The position numbers and the translations under genes are program-made. The notes beneath the pieces are model-generated. The model ran no database searches. It had not been told where the DNA came from and saw only the letters and a program-made list of their open reading frames with translations. A stretch of DNA of 32,356 bases, from positions 1-32,356 of the forward strand of contig JAJTXQ010000010.1 in assembly GCA_021462855.1 (NCBI GenBank), given 5' to 3'. Below, piece after piece: positions 1,522 through 23,560 of this stretch; position 1 is the stretch's first letter, and each line of letters starts with the position of its first letter. The stretch comes from Dehalococcoidia bacterium. GTDB taxonomy: Bacteria; Chloroflexota; Dehalococcoidia; DSTF01; JACRBR01.

Positions 1522-2583
1522 ATGCACTTGATGCGAAGATGGCACGCCGTGCCATTGGCGGCGCTCGTCGCGCTAGCGGTCGGCGCCGGCTTGATCGGCG
1601 CGATCGCGCCCGGGGGCGTCGAAGCGGGAGGTCCCGTCGACTTCACCTTTGCCGTCGACTGCGACACCTCAGATACGGTGGTCGACTCGGTGTGCGACAA
1701 CGTCCCGCCCGGCGCGCATTCGGTGAACATCGCGCTGTTCAATGACAGCGGGGCGCCGAACACGATCTCGGCGTTTTCGTTCATCTTGCTGGGCGACAAT
1801 ACCGGCAGCCTGAGCGTGAGCGCCCCGCCGAGCCCCAACGGCGCGGTATTCCCCTCGACCCCACCCCTGTCGTTCAACTGCACGCTCGTCCCGCCGGTGC
1901 AGGACAGCGATCCGAGTCCGACGGGGACGAACTCATCGCTCGACTGCTTCTCCGGGTCTGGATTGCCTGTGTCCATCGCGGACGGGGAAACGATCGTCCT
2001 CGGTACGGTGAGCTACACAGCGGCTGCCGGCGGCGCGACGTTCTCGCTGGCGGAGGGTCTCGTCGGCGACGAAGCTGGCGGGAACGTCGTTGTGTGCAGC
2101 GACCCGCAGCAGACGACTTTCACGATACTCTGCAACGGCGCGCTTGTCGGCTACGGCCAGGTCGCGCCTGCGGACACGCCGACGCCGACGAGCACGCCGA
2201 CGAACACGGCGACCCCGACGGCGACGCAGCCGCTGCCCACACCGTGCCAGACCAACTGCCCGACATCGACGTCGCTGGCGTTCGTCACGGTGACGCCGAC
2301 TCCCGGCACGCCAACGGCAGTGGCCGGCAGCGAGACGCCCGCGCCCGCGCCGACCGAGCCCGGTGGCACCACGCCGCCCGGCGGCGGCCAGCAGCCGGGT
2401 GGCGGCACGGGCCCCGGCGGCGGGCGCCCGATCACCCTTCCGGACACCGGCGCCGGTGACGGCGGCGGCCTCGACTGGTCGGCGACGGCGCTCATGGCGC
2501 TCGCCGCCATCGCAGCCGGGCTCATGGCCGGTGGCGTGTACTACGCCGCCGTCCGCCGCATCGAGCGGAACAAGGGAGAGTGA
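1522..2583 (+). CDS. Sortase-anchored cohesin-like surface protein with LPDTG motif
   Basis: ATG at 1522 is preceded by GGAGGAGGAAG, a clear ribosome site; more upstream in-frame starts lack one. Product is 353 aa. Residues 1-35 are a signal peptide (Met-His-Leu-Met-Arg-Arg, then a hydrophobic core ending near GGVEAGG). Residues ~38-215 are a beta-rich domain similar to the first domain of the left-edge gene, with several cysteines and LGTVSYTAA. A short Thr/Pro segment and a Gly/Pro-rich stretch follow. LPDTGAGDGG (motif at 2437-2451), a hydrophobic helix of about 22 residues and the tail RRIERNKGE complete a textbook cell-wall sorting signal. Its stop overlaps the next gene's leader, so the two are probably co-transcribed. 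Three sortases downstream are the likely partners. The binding role is unknown. Confidence 0.85.
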   Translation: MHLMRRWHAVPLAALVALAVGAGLIGAIAPGGVEAGGPVDFTFAVDCDTSDTVVDSVCDNVPPGAHSVNIALFNDSGAPNTISAFSFILLGDNTGSLSVSAPPSPNGAVFPSTPPLSFNCTLVPPVQDSDPSPTGTNSSLDCFSGSGLPVSIADGETIVLGTVSYTAAAGGATFSLAEGLVGDEAGGNVVVCSDPQQTTFTILCNGALVGYGQVAPADTPTPTSTPTNTATPTATQPLPTPCQTNCPTSTSLAFVTVTPTPGTPTAVAGSETPAPAPTEPGGTTPPGGGQQPGGGTGPGGGRPITLPDTGAGDGGGLDWSATALMALAAIAAGLMAGGVYYAAVRRIERNKGE

Positions 2584-2585
2584 GG

Positions 2586-4289
2586 ATGATGCTGAGGAAG
2601 TTCACACGAGCGCTCCGCGTCACGGCCCTGGTTGCCATCCTGGCGGCCACGCTTGGCGGGGCGGCGCTGGTCGGCAGCGGCAGCAGCGTCGAGCCGAAGG
2701 CCGCTGAAGCTGGCCCCACCGCGATGCTCGGGCTCAACAAGGACATGTGCGTCGCGATGGCCGTCGCCTTCGCCGGCCTGGCCGACCTCGACGCGCTGTC
2801 CGCATGCGGCGTGATGATGGTGCAAGACGCGGAGTCCAGCTTCCAGAAGCTGGTCCGCTGCCTGCGCGGCGCCGACAAGGATCTGTCGACCGAAGAGCGC
2901 GACTCGAATGTCACCTGCCTTCTCACGGGCCCGACGCCGCTGCGGCCCGATCCGAGTGAGTTTGCGGTCATCGACCGCGACAAGAACTACGTGCACGGGA
3001 GCCAGCAGTTGATCGTCATGGCCTTCGTGAACGATGACGCGCCGGTGCGGTTTCACACCGATACCGGCGTCCTGCTCAACAACCCGCTGTACCTCGGCAC
3101 GCGCACGCCGGGCAAGGATTTCTACTGCGAGACCGCGAGCCCGCTCACCAACGGCGACCCGGACTGCGACGGCGATCCGGCGACGGTCGGCGATGGCGTC
3201 GTCGTCGGCGTGATCGAATTCGACCTCATCCCGGACGAGGATGAGCTCGGCGACTTCGAAGTGATGGCGATCCAGGAAGGCATCGCCTTCCCGATGACGT
3301 TCCGGGTGCAGGACGTGCCGGAAACCATGTCGCTGGACTACCTCTTCGGCAAGGGCACGATCCAGACGGGCGCCACCGACCCGCCGGAGCCGGGCGAACC
3401 GGTCGAGGCGACGGACTGCGTGTTTGCCGGTTCGACGGCCGGCGTGCTCGGCGCCATTAACTCGCCGTACAAGGCGATCATCCTCATCAAGTCGCTGACA
3501 CAGGACGGCGAGGAGGTCATCGGCACGCTCTTCAACTGGGAGCCGTTGTTCAAGACGGCGTCAGGCGACGACGAGAGCAAGATCGGCGGTGTCGCGCTTC
3601 CGTCGACACCGACGCTCGACACCGGGGCGATCGGCATCGGCTTCCCGCAGTTCGTCTGCGGAAAGGAAGAGCCGGGGACGCTGACGCTCAAGGTGGAAGT
3701 GAACACGCTGCTCTCGGGCAACGCCGAGTTCGAGCAGGACGAGATCGACGTCACGGTCGTCGGTCCGCCGGCGACGATGGAGCTGACCGCCGATCCGAAG
3801 GCGATCGCCTGCGATGGCACGCAGACGTCGAAGGTTACGGCGACGCTCAAGAGAGCCGATGGCGGTAACCCGGCGAACGGCGCCGACGTGGCGTTCAGCG
3901 CCGTCGCGCTCGGCTCGGTGAACCCGCTCGTCGCCGACACGACCGATGGCGTGGCAACGACGACCGTCTCGCCGCTCAGCAACGTGGGCCGCGGCGTCAC
4001 CGTGCTGGCCGAGGTCGACGACGCGTCGCTCGACGACCCGATCAAGGGGTCGATCCTGGTCGAGTGCTTGCCCGGCGGCGCGGCGCCACCGCCCGCGGGC
4101 CAGCCGGCGCCCGGAGGCGGCGCGGCGCCCGGCAGCGGGCGCCCGGGTGGCACGATCACCGGCCCTGACACCGGCTCCGGCGGCGACCTCGACGGCCGCG
4201 GCGCGCTGAGCGCCTGGCCGGCGGTGGCGCTGTTCGTCGGCGCGATGGGCCTCGCCGGCGCGCGCTTCGCGCTCCGGCGCACGGACTGA
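2586..4289 (+). CDS. Sortase-anchored Ig-like surface protein with GPDTG motif
   Basis: The ATG at 2586, behind GGGAGAG, starts two bases after the upstream stop; ATG 2589 is equally possible. Product is 567 aa. A basic N-terminus and hydrophobic core form a signal peptide ending near residue 42. The middle region (residues ~45-390) is cysteine-containing, beta-rich and unrecognised. Residues ~395-500 are a bacterial Ig-like domain of the Big/invasin type (ADPKAIACDGTQTSKVTATL) closely similar to one in the protein at 4851-6416. A Gly/Pro/Ala-rich spacer leads to ITGPDTGSGG (GPDTG at 4161-4175), a hydrophobic helix and the tail RFALRRTD. The arrangement is a sorting signal in which Gly replaces the usual Leu. 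It is likely anchored by a sortase at 6611-9121. Surface-layer or adhesion roles are possible but not shown. Confidence 0.83.
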   Translation: MMLRKFTRALRVTALVAILAATLGGAALVGSGSSVEPKAAEAGPTAMLGLNKDMCVAMAVAFAGLADLDALSACGVMMVQDAESSFQKLVRCLRGADKDLSTEERDSNVTCLLTGPTPLRPDPSEFAVIDRDKNYVHGSQQLIVMAFVNDDAPVRFHTDTGVLLNNPLYLGTRTPGKDFYCETASPLTNGDPDCDGDPATVGDGVVVGVIEFDLIPDEDELGDFEVMAIQEGIAFPMTFRVQDVPETMSLDYLFGKGTIQTGATDPPEPGEPVEATDCVFAGSTAGVLGAINSPYKAIILIKSLTQDGEEVIGTLFNWEPLFKTASGDDESKIGGVALPSTPTLDTGAIGIGFPQFVCGKEEPGTLTLKVEVNTLLSGNAEFEQDEIDVTVVGPPATMELTADPKAIACDGTQTSKVTATLKRADGGNPANGADVAFSAVALGSVNPLVADTTDGVATTTVSPLSNVGRGVTVLAEVDDASLDDPIKGSILVECLPGGAAPPPAGQPAPGGGAAPGSGRPGGTITGPDTGSGGDLDGRGALSAWPAVALFVGAMGLAGARFALRRTD

Positions 4290-4314
4290 CCGCGGCGCAG
4301 CGATACGCACGAAG

Positions 4315-4346
4315 AGGGGGCTCGCGCATGCGAGCCCCCTTTGTGT
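4315..4346 (+). terminator. Rho-independent terminator after the GPDTG protein
   Basis: A perfect 11-bp stem (4315-4325 with 4330-4340) closed by the GCAT loop is followed by TTTGTGT. It lies 25 bases past the stop at 4289. It ends the first two-gene surface operon and implies a separate promoter for the gene starting at 4851. Confidence 0.9.
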
Positions 4347-4850
4347 CGTGCTGGCCGCTGGCGAACCCGACGGCGGCCGCGTGGCCGCGAGCGCGGGCCG
4401 ACGGCCCTTGGCGGAACATAAGGGTACGAACAAATGATCTGCCTTCGCCCCGCAACGGCGCGCCCGGAGCGCGCGGGGCGGCAAGTCCGCAAGGCAAAGC
4501 AGGGAAATCCCTAATGAAATCAGGCGCGCGGGCGGTTAACCTTTCGCCCGCGCGGGGCGTTCTACGGACGGCGCCCGAGAAGGGTGCCAATCGCGTGTTT
4601 AGGTCCCGCATGGATGCGGTTGGATTGCCCCGCGGAGGAGGAAAGGAGGGCAGGACGCCCGGCAGCGGAATCTCGGACGGCACCACAGGATCGCGTCGCG
4701 GTAACTCGGCCGAGGGCGACGCGGGCCGCAGGACGGCAAAGCCTCCACTGCCAGGCGAAGCCAGCACAGTACAAAAACAGACGATTCGGCCGGAACGTGC
4801 GGCGCTTGAGGAAAGCCCCGCACATCCCAATCCCAGGAGGAGACAGTCAA
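4347..4850 (+). promoter_or_regulatory. Long hairpin-rich leader, candidate regulatory RNA, upstream of the TTG-started surface gene
   Basis: This 504-base gap carries no convincing gene. It is dense in hairpins: a strong stem of GCGCGGGCG with its complement enclosing GTTAACCTT (about 4526-4553), GGCGCCC with GGGTGCC closing a GAGAA loop (4570-4588), CCGCA/TGCGG (4606-4619), and CGCGTCGC with GCGACGCG (about 4691-4723). Purine-rich single-stranded pieces such as GGCAAAGCC (4735-4743) sit between them. The AGGAGGAG ribosome site at 4834-4841 closes the leader. These are features of a structured 5' untranslated region or separate small RNA. I could not match it to a known riboswitch. A promoter must lie inside it, because a terminator sits at its start, but no clear -35/-10 pair was found. 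Confidence 0.5.
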
Positions 4851-6416
4851 TTGAGTAAGTTTGGTATTGGCGCCATCGCGCTGGTCGCGGCCGTACTGCT
4901 CGGCTTCGGCGCGCGCATTGGCACCCAGACCGCTCACGCCGAGGTCGACGGCACCGTCGCCATCGGTTGTGAGTTCCTCGCCCGGTACATCGATGGCGAC
5001 CCGGACGACCCGACCGCCGCTGGTGACTACACCTCTGCCTGCGACGGCATCACGGGCGGCGCTCCGGGCGCTGGTGAAGTTGGCGCCCTCGGCGACGCCC
5101 TCGGCGACGAGGACGGCACGCTCGAAGCGTCGGACTTCGACGACATCGACATGGACGCGAACCAGATCCAGGACGGCGGCGCGAGCTGGCTCGACGAGAT
5201 CCTGGTCTTCGCGTTCGTCGACAACGACGAGACGGTCCTGTTTGACGCGGGTTCTGGTCTCACGGTCGACATTCACCTGGACACCACCGGCGCTTCGGCC
5301 GGCGCGGGCACCGACCTGAACGCCGAGACCTGCGACGCGACCGACTCGATCGACCTCGACTGCGAGACGGCGACGCTGGACGACGGCGACGGCGTGGTGG
5401 TTGCCACCCTCACCGACGGCACCGGCGACCCCGGCGACGACGTCGACGTTGACGTCGAGCAGGCGGACGACCCGGACACGGTCAGCACGCAGACGATCTC
5501 GGTCGTCGGCGCGCCTGACGAGATCACGCTCGAGGCGCTCAAGGGCACGATCGAGGCGACTGGCTCGACCAGCGACTTCGATGACTGCCTCGAGGAGTCT
5601 GATGTCTCCGACGCCGGCACGATCGGCGACGTCGACAAGACGATCCTCAAGGCGGTCGTGGTCGACGACGACGGTGTCGAGCTGACCCGCATCGCCGTCG
5701 ACTGGGATGTCGACGACAGCGACGTGGCCGACTGGGACAGCGACAGCGGCGAAGACGCTGACGAGCCGAAGGCGGACACGGGCATCACGGTCGACACCGG
5801 CGACCTGGCCGGCATCGGCCAGTTCCTGGTCCTCTGCGGCGGCACCGAGACCGGCACGGCCACGGTCACCGCTGACGAGCCCACCTCGAACGAGGACGCG
5901 AGCGTGGATGTGAACGTTGTCGGCGCGCCGGCGACGATCGCCCTCACGGCGTCCCCGGCGGCGATTGCCTGCGACGGCACGCAGACCTCGTCGGTGACGG
6001 CGAAGGTCACGGACTCTGGCGGCAACAACGTCGCCAATGGCACGAGCGTTGAGTTCAGCGTGGTTGCGCTGGGCACGGCGAACCCGATCACGACCACGAC
6101 CGCGGATGGCTCCGCCTCCTCGACGATCACCCCGCTCTCCGGCGCGACCGCCGGTGTGGTGGTGCTCGTGACGGCGGGCGACGCCCAGGCTTCGATCCGC
6201 ATCGACTGCTCGCTCCCGATCCCGACGGCGACGTCGACGGGCCCGCAGCCGACGCCGACGCGCCCGGGTGGCATCGTCGGTCCGGACACCGGTAACGGTG
6301 GCTACCTCGGCCAGGACGGCTCGGCTGGCTTCCCGATGTGGACGCTGGTCGCGCTGGCCCTCGGCAGCGTGGCTCTCGTCGCCGGCGGCATGGTTACGCG
6401 CAAGGTGAGCAAGTAA
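4851..6416 (+). CDS. Acidic sortase-anchored Ig-like surface protein with GPDTG motif, TTG start
   Basis: The start is TTG at 4851, about ten bases after AGGAGGAG. It gives a short N-terminus (SKFGIGAIALVAAVLLGF..) and a signal peptide ending QTAHA-EVDG, whereas upstream in-frame starts would bury that signal. Product is 521 aa. The mature chain is extremely rich in Asp and Glu through ~residue 350, with beta-strand-like segments spaced by DD/DVD runs. Residues ~360-460 are an Ig-like domain (ASPAAIACDGTQTSSVTAKV) paralogous to that of the protein at 2586-4289. IVGPDTGNGG (GPDTG at 6279-6293), a hydrophobic helix and the tail RKVSK form the sorting signal. The hairpin-rich leader and strong ribosome site suggest high, controlled expression, as for an S-layer or other abundant surface protein; that is inference. 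Confidence 0.82.
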   Translation: MSKFGIGAIALVAAVLLGFGARIGTQTAHAEVDGTVAIGCEFLARYIDGDPDDPTAAGDYTSACDGITGGAPGAGEVGALGDALGDEDGTLEASDFDDIDMDANQIQDGGASWLDEILVFAFVDNDETVLFDAGSGLTVDIHLDTTGASAGAGTDLNAETCDATDSIDLDCETATLDDGDGVVVATLTDGTGDPGDDVDVDVEQADDPDTVSTQTISVVGAPDEITLEALKGTIEATGSTSDFDDCLEESDVSDAGTIGDVDKTILKAVVVDDDGVELTRIAVDWDVDDSDVADWDSDSGEDADEPKADTGITVDTGDLAGIGQFLVLCGGTETGTATVTADEPTSNEDASVDVNVVGAPATIALTASPAAIACDGTQTSSVTAKVTDSGGNNVANGTSVEFSVVALGTANPITTTTADGSASSTITPLSGATAGVVVLVTAGDAQASIRIDCSLPIPTATSTGPQPTPTRPGGIVGPDTGNGGYLGQDGSAGFPMWTLVALALGSVALVAGGMVTRKVSK

Positions 6417-6441
6417 TCACGCCCAACGGTTGAACTGGGAC

Positions 6442-6474
6442 TCGGGGCCGGCCGCCCTTCGCGGCCGGCCCCGA
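6442..6474 (+). terminator. GC-rich hairpin after the acidic surface gene
   Basis: A perfect 14-bp stem (6442-6455 with 6461-6474) with a CCTTC loop lies 25 bases after the stop. It has no T-run (AACCACA follows). It may be a weak terminator or a 3'-end-protecting hairpin that allows partial read-through into the sortase genes. Confidence 0.55.
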
Positions 6475-6610
6475 ACCACATCCGGGCCGCGCCGCGCGGC
6501 GTACTCGTTGCGGCGCGGGGAGCCAGCGGCGATCCCGTATGGCACACTATGGCGGGGGCGGATGAGGCCGCGCGCGGACGGTGCGCGCGGAGGACAGGGG
6601 ACAAGGCGAC

Positions 6611-7426
6611 ATGATGGACCAGGAGAACGGGGGCGGCGGCTTCCTCTCGCGGCTGCGGGAGAATGAGACGCTGCGCAAGATCACCGGCGGCCGGCCAGAT
6701 ATCGCCATCTTCGGGCTGCCGGTGCTGCTCATCGGCGTGATCATCGCGGGCGTGGTGCTGGGTCTGACGCTCGGCGGCGGCTCGGGCGAAGGCGATGACC
6801 AGCAGGTCGCCGGCTCGCCGACGGCGACGGCCGCGGCATCGAAGACGGCCGAACCGACGAAGACCCAGGTGCACGCCGGCATCCTGACGCCGATCCCGGT
6901 GAGCCCGGGCGACCGGCTGGCGCTGTCGGACCTGGCGGCCCGGGGCGCCGGCCCGGCGCCGCGCGGCGACTTCAACGGCCAGCGCCTGCTCATCCCGAGC
7001 ATCGGCGTCGATGCGGAGTTCTCGTTCAAGCAGGTCCCGCCCTCCGGCCAGATGCCAAACCCCAACGGCCCGACCGATGTCGCGTACTACGACTTCGGGC
7101 AGTGGCCCGGCATGGGCGGTGTGCCGGGGCTCGGCGGCAATGTCGTGCTTGCCGGCCATGTCGACTACATCCGATACGGCCCGGCCGTGTTCTGGGACCT
7201 CGCCCAGGTGAAGGCCGGCGACCGCATCCAGATCCGGATGAAGGACGGCGCGGTCATCGAGTACCAGGTGGAGTTCAACAAGACGTTCGAGGTCGGCAAC
7301 GCGGACTGGAGCTCCATCGTGGCCGCGACGGGCGATGAGTCGGTGACGCTCATCACCTGCGGCGGCGAGTTCGAGGCCGGGCACTACAGCGACCGCCGCA
7401 TCGTCTGGGGACGGCGCATTACCTAG
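6611..7426 (+). CDS. Membrane-anchored class F-like sortase 1
   Basis: ATG pair at 6611/6614; AAGGCG is the nearest ribosome-site-like sequence. Product is 271 aa. Residues 1-30 are cytoplasmic, ~31-54 a membrane helix (IAIFGLPVLLIGVIIAGVVL), then a Thr/Ala linker and a sortase domain from ~124 (QRLLIPSIGVDAEF). Catalytic residues are visible: His183 in LAGHVDY, Cys250 in VTLITCGG and Arg262/263 in YSDRRIV. The motif LITCGG with a C-terminal YxDRxVV is typical of class F-type sortases of actinobacteria and Chloroflexota. It should cleave the Thr-Gly bond of LPDTG/GPDTG proteins and transfer them to a cell-wall or surface acceptor outside the membrane. It is the first of three adjacent sortases, directly downstream of three putative substrates. 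Confidence 0.9.
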   Translation: MMDQENGGGGFLSRLRENETLRKITGGRPDIAIFGLPVLLIGVIIAGVVLGLTLGGGSGEGDDQQVAGSPTATAAASKTAEPTKTQVHAGILTPIPVSPGDRLALSDLAARGAGPAPRGDFNGQRLLIPSIGVDAEFSFKQVPPSGQMPNPNGPTDVAYYDFGQWPGMGGVPGLGGNVVLAGHVDYIRYGPAVFWDLAQVKAGDRIQIRMKDGAVIEYQVEFNKTFEVGNADWSSIVAATGDESVTLITCGGEFEAGHYSDRRIVWGRRIT

Positions 7427-7591
7427 CGTGTACGGCGCCCGGAATGCGTGGCGCGGCTCCGGGCGCGCGTTGTCATCGGGCCAGCGGCAGGCGCGCGGAT
7501 GTCCAATCCGTGCGTATGCTGAGCGCCCGTACTGGATTATCCTGATGTGCGTTGCCCCGCCGGCAGCCGTAGACATCGATAAGGGGGAAGC

Positions 7592-8395
7592 ATGCCGGCT
7601 CCGATCCGCAATCTCTGGAACGACGCGAGCGCGCTGAAGCGCGCGCTGCTCGTGGGCGGCCCGCTCGCGGTGGTCGCCATCATCGCCACGGTGGCGGTGG
7701 TGGCAGCGACGGGCGATGGCGGCGAGCCGCCGGCCGAGGCCGTCGCGCCGACGGCGACGGCGACCGCGACCGCGACGGCGACAGCGATGCCGACCGACAC
7801 GCCGCTCCCGACGGCGACGCCGGCGCCGGCGCCTCCGCCCAGCTCGGGCGGCAGCAGCGGCGGCGGCGGGACGTACCGGCCGCCGAGCGGCGGCGGGCAG
7901 GTCGTACAGCCGCAAGCCGGCACGGGCCCCGGCCCGGTGCAGAGCACCGGCATGTCCATGAGCATCCCGAAGATCGGCGTCAACGGCGCGGTGTCCTCGC
8001 GGACGGTGGGCACGAATGGCCGCATGGGTGACCCGATCGGCGCGTGGATGGTCCTCTGGTATGACTTCTCGACGTACTCGCCGGGCTACGGCGGCTACCC
8101 GGGCGAGCCGGGCGCGAACGCCGTATTCTCGGGCCACGTCGACTACATCAACGTCGGTCCGGCGGTGTTCTGGAGCATCCGGAGCCTTGCGCCTGGCGAC
8201 CAGGTGACCGTGAATACGCCGAACGGGCCGATCACCTATGCGATAGAGTGGAGTACGTGGGCGGGACCGCGCGACGACTTCACCGGCTACGTGGCGCAGA
8301 CAGGCCAGGATGTGATCACGCTGGTGACGTGCATTGGCACATTCAGCGGCGGGCACTACAGCGACCGGCTGATCGTGCGTGGCGTGCGCATCTAG
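7592..8395 (+). CDS. Membrane-anchored class F-like sortase 2
   Basis: ATG at 7592 follows AAGGGGGAAGC. Product is 267 aa. A membrane helix covers ~18-40, followed by a TATATAT/Pro/Gly linker to residue ~118, longer than in its neighbours. The sortase domain spans ~120-267: His182 (FSGHVDY), Cys247 (ITLVTCIG) and Arg259 (YSDRLIV). The TCIG sequence differs from the TCGG and TCSG of its neighbours, which may reflect a different substrate or acceptor. It is paralogous to the proteins at 6611 and 8453, from which it is separated by 165 and 57 bases. The long linker would place the active site further from the membrane. Division of labour among the three is inference. Confidence 0.9.
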   Translation: MPAPIRNLWNDASALKRALLVGGPLAVVAIIATVAVVAATGDGGEPPAEAVAPTATATATATATAMPTDTPLPTATPAPAPPPSSGGSSGGGGTYRPPSGGGQVVQPQAGTGPGPVQSTGMSMSIPKIGVNGAVSSRTVGTNGRMGDPIGAWMVLWYDFSTYSPGYGGYPGEPGANAVFSGHVDYINVGPAVFWSIRSLAPGDQVTVNTPNGPITYAIEWSTWAGPRDDFTGYVAQTGQDVITLVTCIGTFSGGHYSDRLIVRGVRI

Positions 8396-8452
8396 CCCGA
8401 TACATCGCCCGGCCGCCTGCGTTCGTATCGATGCAGAGGTAATCGCGCCCGG

Positions 8453-9121
8453 ATGGTCAAGGTGAATTCGAACAGGCTTTCGTACGCGCTGATCACGCTC
8501 GGGACGGCGCTGATCGTCGTCGCCGTCACGCTGATGGCGCTCGTCGCCACGGACGTCATCGACGACGGGTCGACGGGCAACAGTGACCTCGAGACGGTCA
8601 CGACGTTCGGCGACCCGATCGACATCACGCCCCAGGCGAGCGTCACTCCGTCAAGCAAGTTCCCGCCGCCGTCGAACGCGCCGATCACGCGGCTGGTCAT
8701 CCCGCGCGCCGAGATCGATGCGCCGGTTGTCGTCCGCGGCGTCGACGAGGCGCGGGTGATGCAGACGCCGGACAACGCGTGGGACACCGCGTGGTACGAC
8801 TTCAGCGCGGTCCCCGGATACGGCGGGAACGCCGTGTTCTCGGGCCACGTCGACTACATCAACGTCGGCAAGGCGGTGTTCTGGAACCTGAAAGACCTCG
8901 TCGAGGGCGACGTTGTCGAAGTGCGGCTCGAAGACGGCACGACGTACACGTACGCCGTCACGTCGAAGCAGCAATACGACGCGACGACGGCGCCGGTCGA
9001 CCAGATCGTCGGGCCGACAGCGAACGAAGTGGTGACACTGATCACGTGCAGCGGCACGTTCAGCAGCGCCACGCACCAGTACGACAAACGCCTCGTCATC
9101 CGCGCCGAGCGCATCGCGTAG
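8453..9121 (+). CDS. Membrane-anchored class F-like sortase 3
   Basis: ATG at 8453; AGAGGTAA lies about twelve bases upstream, so translation may partly depend on the preceding gene. Product is 222 aa, the shortest of the three. A membrane helix spans ~10-33 and the linker is short. The sortase domain starts at ~78 (ITRLVIPRAEIDAPVVV) with His132 (FSGHVDY), Cys199 (VTLITCSG) and Arg213 (YDKRLVI). The pieces SGHVDYINVG and AVFW are nearly identical to sortase 2, pointing to local duplication. The same reaction as its neighbours is expected: transpeptidation of PDTG-bearing surface proteins. Confidence 0.9.
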   Translation: MVKVNSNRLSYALITLGTALIVVAVTLMALVATDVIDDGSTGNSDLETVTTFGDPIDITPQASVTPSSKFPPPSNAPITRLVIPRAEIDAPVVVRGVDEARVMQTPDNAWDTAWYDFSAVPGYGGNAVFSGHVDYINVGKAVFWNLKDLVEGDVVEVRLEDGTTYTYAVTSKQQYDATTAPVDQIVGPTANEVVTLITCSGTFSSATHQYDKRLVIRAERIA

Positions 9122-22299: not shown

Positions 22300-22435
22300 C
22301 TACGGGCAGGGACCCGCGTGCTGCGCGACGAATTGCAGGTCGAGCACGTTGATCGAGCCATCCTTGGTCACGTCGAAGTCGACGATGTACCCGGCCGGGC
22401 CAGAGGGCGAGACGCTCAACGCGATCTGCTGCAGG
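22300..22435 (-). pseudogene. Broken dockerin-like C-terminus
   Basis: On the minus strand, about 44 codons ending in a stop at 22300-22302 read ..GYIVDFDVTKDGSINVLDLQFVAQ.., a single dockerin/EF-hand-type loop with a Cys near the end. This resembles the tail of the left-edge protein and the tail cut by the right edge. Upstream the reading runs straight into a CRISPR-like repeat with no start codon or protein context, so the rest of the gene appears to be missing. Most likely it is the surviving 3' end of a surface-protein gene, truncated by the event that brought in the repeats. Confidence 0.55.
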
Positions 22436-22598
22436 GGGACTGAAACCTGACCTACCTCGCTAGTGGTGCGGTAGCCGACGACGCCACGAAGTTGCAGACC
22501 ACGAATCCCCTTCGGGGGACTGAAACTTGGGCAGCGGGTACTCGTCGTCCTCGACCTGATAGGTTGCAGACCACGAATCCCCTTCGGGGGACTGAGCA
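22430..22598 (+). CRISPR. Minimal CRISPR array, three repeats and two spacers, no cas genes
   Basis: Repeat 2 (22491-22526, 36 bases) and repeat 3 (22563-22598) agree over 33 bases, starting GTTGCAGACCACGAATCCCC and containing the palindrome CCCCTTCGGGG. Repeat 2 ends ACTGAAAC, a typical 8-base 3' handle; repeat 3 ends ACTGAGCA, the degenerate last repeat expected at the trailing end. Repeat 1 (22430-22446) keeps only TGCA plus GGGGGACTGAAAC and looks internally deleted. Spacers are 44 and 36 bases (22447-22490, 22527-22562). Orientation is plus, with the leader side at left. No cas gene lies in the window. Confidence 0.78.
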
Positions 22599-22720
22599 CA
22601 AGTGGAGCAGGCGCCCGCGGGCGCGGCGCCGGCCGCTGAGCCACGATCCCTCGTCTGAATGACGCCTCCGATCGGACCGCGCCCCCCAGGCCGGGCGCGC
22701 GGGGTGCGTCAGAATGAAGC

Positions 22721-23560
22721 ATGGGCACGCGAGACATTGTCGGGGCGGTGGCGCTGCTGGCGCTGGGCGCCGCGTGCGCGGGCGGCGATGGCGGCGATGG
22801 CGCGGCGACGCCGGCGGCGGCGCGCGCCAGCGTGACGGCGAGTGTGACGGCGATCGCTGCTACGCCGGCGCTCCCTTCCATGACCGCAACGCCGGAACCC
22901 ACGCAGGAACTGCGTCCGACGCCGGCGACGCCCGCAAGCCCGGCGCGCATCCTCCGCCGCGGCGACCCCTCGCGCCGCGCGGTGGCGCTGACGTTCGACG
23001 CGGGCAGCGACGCCGGGCATGCGATGGCGATCCTCGCGACGCTGCGCGACTACGGCGTGCGCGCGGCGTTCGGCATCACCGGGACGTGGGCCGAAGCGAA
23101 CCCGGACGCGCTGTTGTCGATCGCGGCGGAGGGCCACATGCTGCTCAACCACGGATACAGCCACGTGTCATTCACCGGCGCCTCAACCGGCGCGCCCGCG
23201 CTGACGCCGGCCGAACGCGCGCTCGAGCTGCGGCGCACCGAGACGACCGTCTATCGCATCACGGGCCGAAGCACGAGGCCGTACATGCGGCCGCCGTACG
23301 GCGACATCGACGCGGCGATGCCGGCGGACGTCGCGGCGGCGGGGTACAGCGTGATCGCGATGTGGACGGTGGATTCGTTCGGCTGGCGGCGCATCCCCGC
23401 CGATGAGGTCGTCGAGCGGTCGTTGGCGCTCGCGGAGCCGGGCGCGATCTACATCATGCACGTCGGGTCGGAGTCGCAGGACGCTGCGGCGCTGCCGCGG
23501 GTCATCGAAGGGCTGCGCGCCGCCGGTTACGCGATCGTGCCGGTCGACGAGATCGAGTAG
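22721..23560 (+). CDS. Secreted/lipid-anchored polysaccharide deacetylase-like protein
   Basis: ATG at 22721. Product is 279 aa. The signal ends ALGAACAGG, a near-lipobox (Cys19) but with Gly at -3, so lipidation is possible rather than certain. A Thr/Pro/Ala linker runs to ~78. A NodB-type catalytic domain follows: motif 1 is TFDAGSD (Asp93 present; the second Asp of TFDD is Ala94, seen in some subfamilies), motif 2 NHGYSH (His144, His148), motif 3 RPPYG (190-194), motif 4 MWTVDSFGW, motif 5 IYIMHVGS. It should remove N-acetyl groups from a surface or peptidoglycan polysaccharide outside the membrane. Its stop abuts the DUF4097 gene stop (convergent, no gap). Confidence 0.88.
   Translation: MGTRDIVGAVALLALGAACAGGDGGDGAATPAAARASVTASVTAIAATPALPSMTATPEPTQELRPTPATPASPARILRRGDPSRRAVALTFDAGSDAGHAMAILATLRDYGVRAAFGITGTWAEANPDALLSIAAEGHMLLNHGYSHVSFTGASTGAPALTPAERALELRRTETTVYRITGRSTRPYMRPPYGDIDAAMPADVAAAGYSVIAMWTVDSFGWRRIPADEVVERSLALAEPGAIYIMHVGSESQDAAALPRVIEGLRAAGYAIVPVDEIE

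Follow-up and report, generated by a model that had tools for sequence, protein, structure and literature searches.

The members for which the class Dehalococcoidia is mainly known lack a murein wall. Three neighboring genes for sortases, preceded by three genes for proteins with sortase-type sorting tails, raise the question of what is attached to the cell surface in this lineage, and to which acceptor. We analyzed this locus in the genome of a Dehalococcoidia bacterium (GCA_021462855.1; 3.02 Mb, 97.5% complete). The window, that is, the whole stretch of DNA under analysis, is the entire contig JAJTXQ010000010.1 (C2; 32,356 bases). Its forward strand carries the genes for the tailed proteins S1, S2, and S3, followed by those for the sortases SrtA, SrtB, and SrtC. 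In our reading, to which we assign a probability of about 60%, the sortases anchor proteins of the cohesin-fold and Ig-like kinds in murein, where these proteins form the base of a cohesin–dockerin surface assembly. This reading builds on the sorting signals, the intact sortases, the gene order, the correlations of tails with sortases and of sortases with murein, and the cohesin and dockerin domains encoded next to the locus.

All three enzymes matched the sortase family PF04203, with 65.0 bits for SrtA, 57.3 bits for SrtB, and 87.0 bits for SrtC (Pfam cut-off, 26.6 bits), and at E ≤ 0.001 they were the only matches in the genome. SrtA is encoded at positions 6611–7426, within an open reading frame (ORF) beginning at 6581 and with ATG 6611 as perhaps its start codon, SrtB at 7592–8395, and SrtC at 8453–9121. 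Each contains a GHVDY motif, an (L/V)(I/V)TC motif, and a downstream Arg. The His, Cys, and Arg codons are located at 7157–7159, 7358–7360, and 7394–7396 in SrtA, at 8135–8137, 8330–8332, and 8366–8368 in SrtB, and at 8846–8848, 9047–9049, and 9089–9091 in SrtC. The SrtC residues, H132, C199, and R213, were invariant across 11 SrtC orthologues. By eye, the membrane helices of the sortases are N-terminal, and the chains stop shortly past the catalytic domain.

Class F (NF033748) was the top-ranked NCBIfam sortase class for all three proteins, with scores of 85.1 (SrtA), 53.2 (SrtB), and 115.1 bits (SrtC) that stay below the curated cut-off of 166 bits. The model for class C, the pilus sortases, yielded 31.1, 34.5, and 29.2 bits, respectively, at a cut-off of 160 bits. 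The description as class F-like in the original prediction is thus correct in that class F scores best, but all three enzymes fall short of curated membership. By these scores, no label comes closer than class F-like. A predicted model of SrtC, the one sortase that was modeled, showed the sortase beta-barrel fold with a mean predicted local distance difference test (pLDDT) score of 92.2. In a structure comparison with VIA, all 50 matches listed were sortases of several classes (Z 17.0–14.4). As classes A, C, D, and E and the 'SrtF' of Corynebacterium diphtheriae tie within about 2.5 Z units, the fold assigns SrtC to no class. The closest named relatives of SrtC were from metagenome-assembled genomes titled Chloroflexi, Chloroflexota, or Dehalococcoidia, and one viral scan with SrtC, bearing on a phage or mobile origin, gave no relative.

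The substrate candidates S1 (1522–2583), S2 (2586–4289), and S3 (4851–6416) all have hydrophobic, signal-like N-termini as judged by eye. Located by exact position, their motifs are LPDTG in S1 (2437–2451), GPDTG in S2 (4161–4175), and GPDTG in S3 (6279–6293). In each case, the motif lies in a stop-terminated ORF, and a hydrophobic stretch leads from it to a basic end. All three tails have the layout of an LPXTG signal (pentapeptide, hydrophobic stretch, basic end), with Leu as the first residue in S1 only. The originally predicted succession of three such tails and three sortases, each with its His, Cys, and Arg intact, is thereby confirmed. At E 0.01, no match of a curated anchor model from Pfam or NCBIfam was reported for S1, S2, or S3. 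S1 starts with ATG 1522, preceded by AGGAGGAAG, and consists of a signal sequence, a domain with a cohesin fold according to a weak model, a Thr/Pro/Gly linker, and the sorting tail. S2 carries an Ig-like domain of the Invasin_D3/Big_1 type, scoring 34.7 bits with Invasin_D3 (Pfam cut-off, 33) and below the cut-off with Big_1. S3, whose start is most likely TTG 4851 with AGGAGGAG upstream, is an acidic secreted protein with a Big_1/Invasin_D3-type region (26.4 bits for Big_1, 26 bits for Invasin_D3, both under the respective Pfam cut-offs). The S3 tail past the motif (GGYLGQD..GFPMWTLVALALGS; 6279–6416 and orthologues, alignment A5) was better conserved than the N-terminal domain of S3. Such conservation would not be required of a generic membrane helix; the tail may represent a specific recognition feature for a sortase.

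To quantify the clustering, we searched stop-terminated ORFs of at least 100 amino acids for.P.TG with a hydrophobic stretch and then a basic end behind it. Three of the 173 window ORFs satisfied this rule, compared to one of 1,941 in 19 control stretches of this genome that add up to 380 kb, and this single control ORF resembles a channel protein. The stretches had been placed at round coordinates once tails outside the locus were known, and they include none of them. The fairer background is therefore the whole 3.02 Mb with its seven verified tails outside the locus, namely GPDTG on contig C30, LPDTG twice on C23 and once on C6, APNTG on C64, LPKTG on C9, and LPPTG on C44. A tail profile (A2) gave 19 matches at E ≤ 1 in the genome, ten of which, the three linked and the seven unlinked ones, were read. 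The three window tails are a real cluster, yet not the complete substrate set. With ten tails for three sortases, the proposed one-to-one pairing of enzymes and substrates does not hold.

The training set of profile A2 comprised 26 tails, taken from the order and from named genomes of the class that are possibly of the same species as some of the genomes searched here. High scores therefore arise partly by construction. Informative are the unlinked matches, the genomes without sortase, and the first motif residue of 70 unique tails outside the training set, which include a few false positives (e.g., L238). This residue was Leu in 23, Ala in 18, Pro in 16, Gly in five, Val in three, and Phe in two cases, and Ser, Thr, and Tyr occurred once each; Gly was the second residue after TG in 53 of the 70 tails. 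The PDTGxG motif proposed at first is present in all three window tails, but it is too narrow for the relatives, and the predicted signal is better written [L/A/P/G]PxTGxG. A study of Actinoplanes missouriensis from 2026 searched for LPXTG, NPXTG, SPXTG, PPXTG, LPXTA, and LAXTG (PMC13251363). As given there, this list would overlook the forms with Ala or Gly before PxTG.

The locus is conserved in related genomes. Within the same family, the order S1, S2, S3, sortases was kept in G003 (PPSTG, PPDTG, PPDTG), G005 (LPDTG, PPDTG, PPDTG), and G004 (LPNTG, GPNTG, PPVTG), the cluster of G004 holding SrtB and SrtC only. A short contig of G001 carries S3 with GPDTG and three sortases. G008, from another family of the order, encodes APPTG and PPPTG proteins together with three sortases, and G006 and G007 have three sortases as well, with S3-like APNTG tails encoded on short contigs of their own. 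This conservation supports the notion of an attachment module with a non-canonical motif. In a tree of 42 sortases, computed with a quick method and with SH-aLRT support only, SrtA, SrtB, and SrtC each formed a group of their own, in agreement with the order of their genes; all four families of the order were represented on the SrtC side and three on the SrtA/SrtB side. We infer that SrtC is the general sortase and that SrtA and SrtB arrived with the S1–S3 genes.

Do the tails follow the sortases, and the sortases murein, beyond this order? The tail test covered 34 of the 43 class genomes outside the order set: all 19 without sortase, all five with sortase but no murein genes, and ten of the 19 with both. 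At E ≤ 0.01, the profile matched in nine of ten genomes with sortase and murein, in one of five with sortase only, and in one of 19 without sortase; at E ≤ 0.001, the counts were 7/10, 0/5, and 1/19, respectively. All 17 searched genomes of the order had matches, partly by construction. The enrichment of such tails with such sortases in related genomes, on which the original prediction depended, was thus found. Concerning murein, 36 of 37 relatives with at least three Mur-ligase matches contained a sortase, versus five of 23 with fewer, and transpeptidase matches agreed with the Mur-ligase status in these 60 genomes except for G051 (one match). We then counted 294 class genomes that are at least 90% complete. 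A sortase was present in 78 of the 84 genomes with at least two transpeptidase matches versus 55 of the 206 with none; four genomes with a single match were left out of this count, two of which have a sortase (G051, G271) and two of which have none (G188, G284). At least two sortases occurred in 67 of the 78 murein-positive sortase genomes versus one of the 55 without transpeptidase, the other 54 having exactly one; these copy numbers are slightly low, G003 and G009 being counted lower than in the scan of 60 genomes. All these counts refer to related species and not to independent events. A strict tie between sortase and murein, nearly true in the first 60 genomes, was weakened by the 55 exceptions, which include the apparently murein-less G023, G044, G103, and G167. 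Across the class, tails track sortases, and sortases mostly follow murein. The genome of the window has seven Mur-ligase and three transpeptidase matches.

The cohesin–dockerin part of our reading derives from the genes upstream of S1. At its very start, the window encodes P0 (3–1250, forward strand), a secreted protein with a cohesin-like domain homologous to that of S1, a Thr/Pro linker, and a C-terminal type I dockerin (Dockerin_1, 39.1 bits; Pfam cut-off, 22.9). As the window is an entire contig, the 5' truncation of P0 results from an assembly break. The missing start is found at the end of contig C21, which overlaps the window start by 87 identical bases. Upstream of P0, C21 contains an ORF of up to 502 amino acids that lacks a Pfam match but whose end resembles a dockerin (lineage profile, E 3e-11), a 419-amino-acid cohesin protein (PF00963 above cut-off) with a C-terminal hydrophobic stretch, a 561-amino-acid ORF with an S1/P0-type domain, and a gene for a TMEM260-like O-mannosyltransferase (L257:4690-6234 in G000:C21) that might glycosylate the Thr/Pro linkers. 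The locus is therefore not the self-contained module it was proposed to be, as it runs upstream onto C21 with its cohesin gene and dockerin-type genes. In G004, a dockerin gene adjoins S1 upstream and is preceded by a cohesin gene; in G003, a 962-amino-acid ORF without Pfam match lies between S1 and the cohesin gene. Altogether, a Pfam cohesin gene was located upstream in three of the five genomes with upstream sequence, or three of four within the family (G000, G003, G004). The co-occurrence of the two domain types also speaks for the reading: of the 60 genomes, 20 had both cohesin and dockerin, two cohesin only, four dockerin only, and 34 neither.

The relationship of the S1 domain to cohesins was traced in several ways. 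A phmmer search with the P0 domain found S1 at E 2.8e-6, and the reverse search from S1 did not list P0 at 1e-3. A BLAST comparison of the pair, run without composition correction or low-complexity filter, gave E 6e-14. In a profile comparison, the S1/P0 family matched the cohesins of the lineage with a probability of 57% and E 1e-4; these Pfam cohesins in turn matched a scaffoldin cohesin of the PDB at E 5e-11. The S1 model, which has a pLDDT of only 57.2, aligned with cohesins, whose fold is a nine-strand jelly-roll, at VIA Z 10.6 (rmsd 2.8, 125 aligned residues). Ranks 1–45 were all cohesin-module entries (Z 10.6 to 7.6), and the first other row had Z 7.6. Because the best Foldseek match of the model reached E 2.9e-3, with none at E 0.001, the fold assignment leans on VIA-align.

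How would the components work together? Signal sequences would direct the export of S1, S2, and S3, which would stay in the membrane through their C-terminal helices and basic tails. As membrane-bound transpeptidases, the three sortases would cut between Thr and Gly in [L/A/P/G]PxTGxG. An acyl-enzyme would form at Thr, and the protein would be passed to an amine of a murein precursor, so that S1, S2, and S3 and at least seven proteins encoded elsewhere would end on the wall via the same sortases. S1 would present its cohesin-fold domain there. Given that the upstream genes code for a membrane-held cohesin and for dockerin-ended proteins, the latter probably plug into the wall-held (S1) and membrane-held (C21) cohesins. 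For the steps past the sequence features, which comprise cleavage, the murein acceptor, the choice of substrates by each sortase, and cohesin–dockerin binding, we infer this course from the known sortase pathway and from ScaE of Ruminococcus flavefaciens (PMC12484212, PMC11557425).

Several observations weigh against this reading. S1 was rejected as a Pfam cohesin (PF00963; cut-off, 24.1 bits), as neither this nor any other Pfam family matched it at E 0.01, and its structural model is weak. Compared singly with the lineage cohesin profile, the stretches of S1, S2, and S3 gave no significant match; the S1 counterpart of G003 was likewise not significant, and that of G004 reached E 0.008 with a probability of 5%. 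The link between C21 and the window consists of the 87-base overlap, which a repeat could also produce. In G005, the contig begins with a 486-amino-acid LPNSG protein upstream of S1 that lacks a Pfam match, and no cohesin match was obtained on the sortase-cluster contig of G008. G009 and G011, among others, possess sortases but neither cohesin nor dockerin, and G022, G025, G055, and G056 possess cohesins without sortase. The two layers are thus separable, and their link is a property of this lineage rather than of either system. Finally, there are the 55 sortase-bearing genomes without a transpeptidase match.

The evidence may also be explained by plain wall anchoring, in which unrelated adhesin-like proteins are attached to murein, the cohesin and dockerin genes are neighbors for another reason, and the S1 domain is a mere structural jelly-roll. 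The Invasin_D3/Big_1-type Ig-like regions of S2 and S3 fit this explanation, and so do the failure of S1 in both the Pfam cohesin search and the single-sequence profile comparison, the cohesins and dockerins without sortases in G022 and G056, and the converse in G009 and G011. We nevertheless consider it rather unlikely, because a Pfam cohesin gene precedes S1 in three genera, P0 fuses an S1-homologous domain to a dockerin, and the cohesin matches of the S1 model rise about 3 Z units over the first non-cohesin row.

Two further explanations concern the product of the sortases. Attachment to a non-murein acceptor, for example to a glycan of the surface or to a further protein, is suggested by the 55 transpeptidase-less genomes that carry a sortase, 54 of them exactly one, as they demonstrate that PF04203 proteins exist here without murein. 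However, genomes with several sortases are nearly all murein-bearing, tails of the type described here hardly occur in the five genomes tested that have sortase but no murein genes, and the genome of the window does have the murein genes. We regard this alternative as improbable. Even less probable, and in our view barely credible, is a sortase-built pilus, with one sortase polymerizing a pilin among S1–S3 and another anchoring it. Several substrates next to several sortases do resemble a pilus island, and one Lys of S2 is invariant in five orthologues. But Lys is missing from S1 between the signal region and the motif, and no Lys is invariant among five S3 or four S1 orthologues. Class C sortases are characterized by a C-terminal membrane helix, whereas the helices here are N-terminal with the chains ending shortly after the catalytic domain, and class F outranks class C for all three enzymes.

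Extending the reading of a murein-attached base for a cohesin–dockerin assembly, we tentatively propose, at somewhat less than even odds, that murein-bearing Dehalococcoidia possess a non-cellulosomal cohesin–dockerin wall coat. Tandem class F-like sortases of relaxed specificity would lock cohesin-fold bases into murein, dockerin-ended proteins, some with a cohesin-like domain of their own, would stack onto them, and the Thr/Pro linkers would possibly be glycosylated by the transferase of the cluster. A cellulosome, which would combine a multi-cohesin scaffoldin with glycoside hydrolases bearing dockerins, is not claimed, since no carbohydrate-binding module was reported among the scanned proteins of the locus.

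Cohesin and dockerin genes also occur apart from the locus. Three large cohesin ORFs of about 2,025 (L188, G012), 1,839 (L189, G014), and 2,205 amino acids (L200, G003) end in LPDTG, LPDTG, and LPRTG tails, respectively, and are candidate sortase-anchored scaffoldins by sequence. The cohesin ORF L190 ends in LPGAG, and the remaining complete cohesin ORFs among those listed had no PxTG tail. L194 and L195 were not counted as anchored cohesin proteins because tail and cohesin lie in different frames, an LPNTG ORF overlapping the cohesin ORF. Five genomes of family f4 (G012, G013, G014, G016, and G017) have 28–65 dockerin and 4–23 cohesin matches each; the genome of the window has eight and six, and includes an ORF with three cohesins (L182). 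Two of its unlinked dockerin proteins were scanned. One (L186:347-2266 in G000:C52) has both a Glucose/Sorbosone dehydrogenase domain and a type I dockerin and is predicted to be an enzyme that could dock; the other showed TSP3 repeats only. Within the window, a second dockerin-like repeat end was detected in ORF 22303–23049 on the reverse strand (lineage profile, E 2e-9), most of which gave no Pfam match at 0.001. SrtC is followed downstream by a DJ-1/PfpI gene and then gyrA. Between positions 1200 and 9500, we counted no promoter-like and two terminator-like sites (shuffle means, 0.5 and 2.6). We therefore do not claim operon boundaries.

Each part of the locus is of a known kind, and the novelty lies in how the parts are combined, in the range of motifs, and in the lineage. 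With the pili that sortases build in Gram-positive bacteria, the locus shares the several substrates beside several sortases; it differs in that the sortases here have no C-terminal membrane helix and S1 and S3 no shared pilin lysine. SrtB of Clostridioides difficile takes (S/P)PXTG instead of LPXTG (PMC5118464). The enzyme belongs to class B. Its signals resemble those described here in that the first residue is not Leu, and PPxTG tails are also found in this lineage; unlike the signals reported for SrtB, LPDTG and GPDTG, and in the relatives APxTG and PPxTG, share a neighborhood or a genome. The described class F sortases (NF033748), such as Cutibacterium acnes SrtF and those of A. missouriensis, correspond to the best-scoring class of our three enzymes and likewise have an N-terminal membrane helix. 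A. missouriensis has four class F paralogues with genes at separate loci (PMC13251363), whereas the genes studied here are in tandem, have linked substrates, and score under the curated cut-off. R. flavefaciens ScaE is a cohesin scaffoldin anchored by a sortase (PMC12484212, PMC11557425), and the S1 model matched its cohesin (2zf9_B) at Z 8.0. S1 is similar to it in combining a cohesin-fold module, according to the weak model, with an LPxTG-type tail beside dockerin proteins; it differs in not being a Pfam cohesin, in the lack of carbohydrate-binding modules among the scanned locus proteins, and in its phylum. A search of open-access literature (titles and abstract starts) found no description of Chloroflexota sortases or sortase-anchored cohesins among the matches listed, and in a 2024 survey of cellulosome-displaying bacteria, a word search for 'Chloroflex' gave no hit (PMC11557425).

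A review describes sortases and teichoic acids as common to Actinobacteria and Bacillia/Clostridiales and sets Chloroflexi apart (PMC7203096). In the sample analyzed here, 78 of the 84 murein-bearing class genomes contain sortases, and the tails share a signal starting with Leu, Ala, Pro, or Gly. Class F sortases are said to be without a known role (PMC13251363); the locus provides class F-like enzymes with linked substrates to test. Moreover, the cohesin–dockerin neighborhood suggests that the covalent layer carries a non-covalent layer on top of it.

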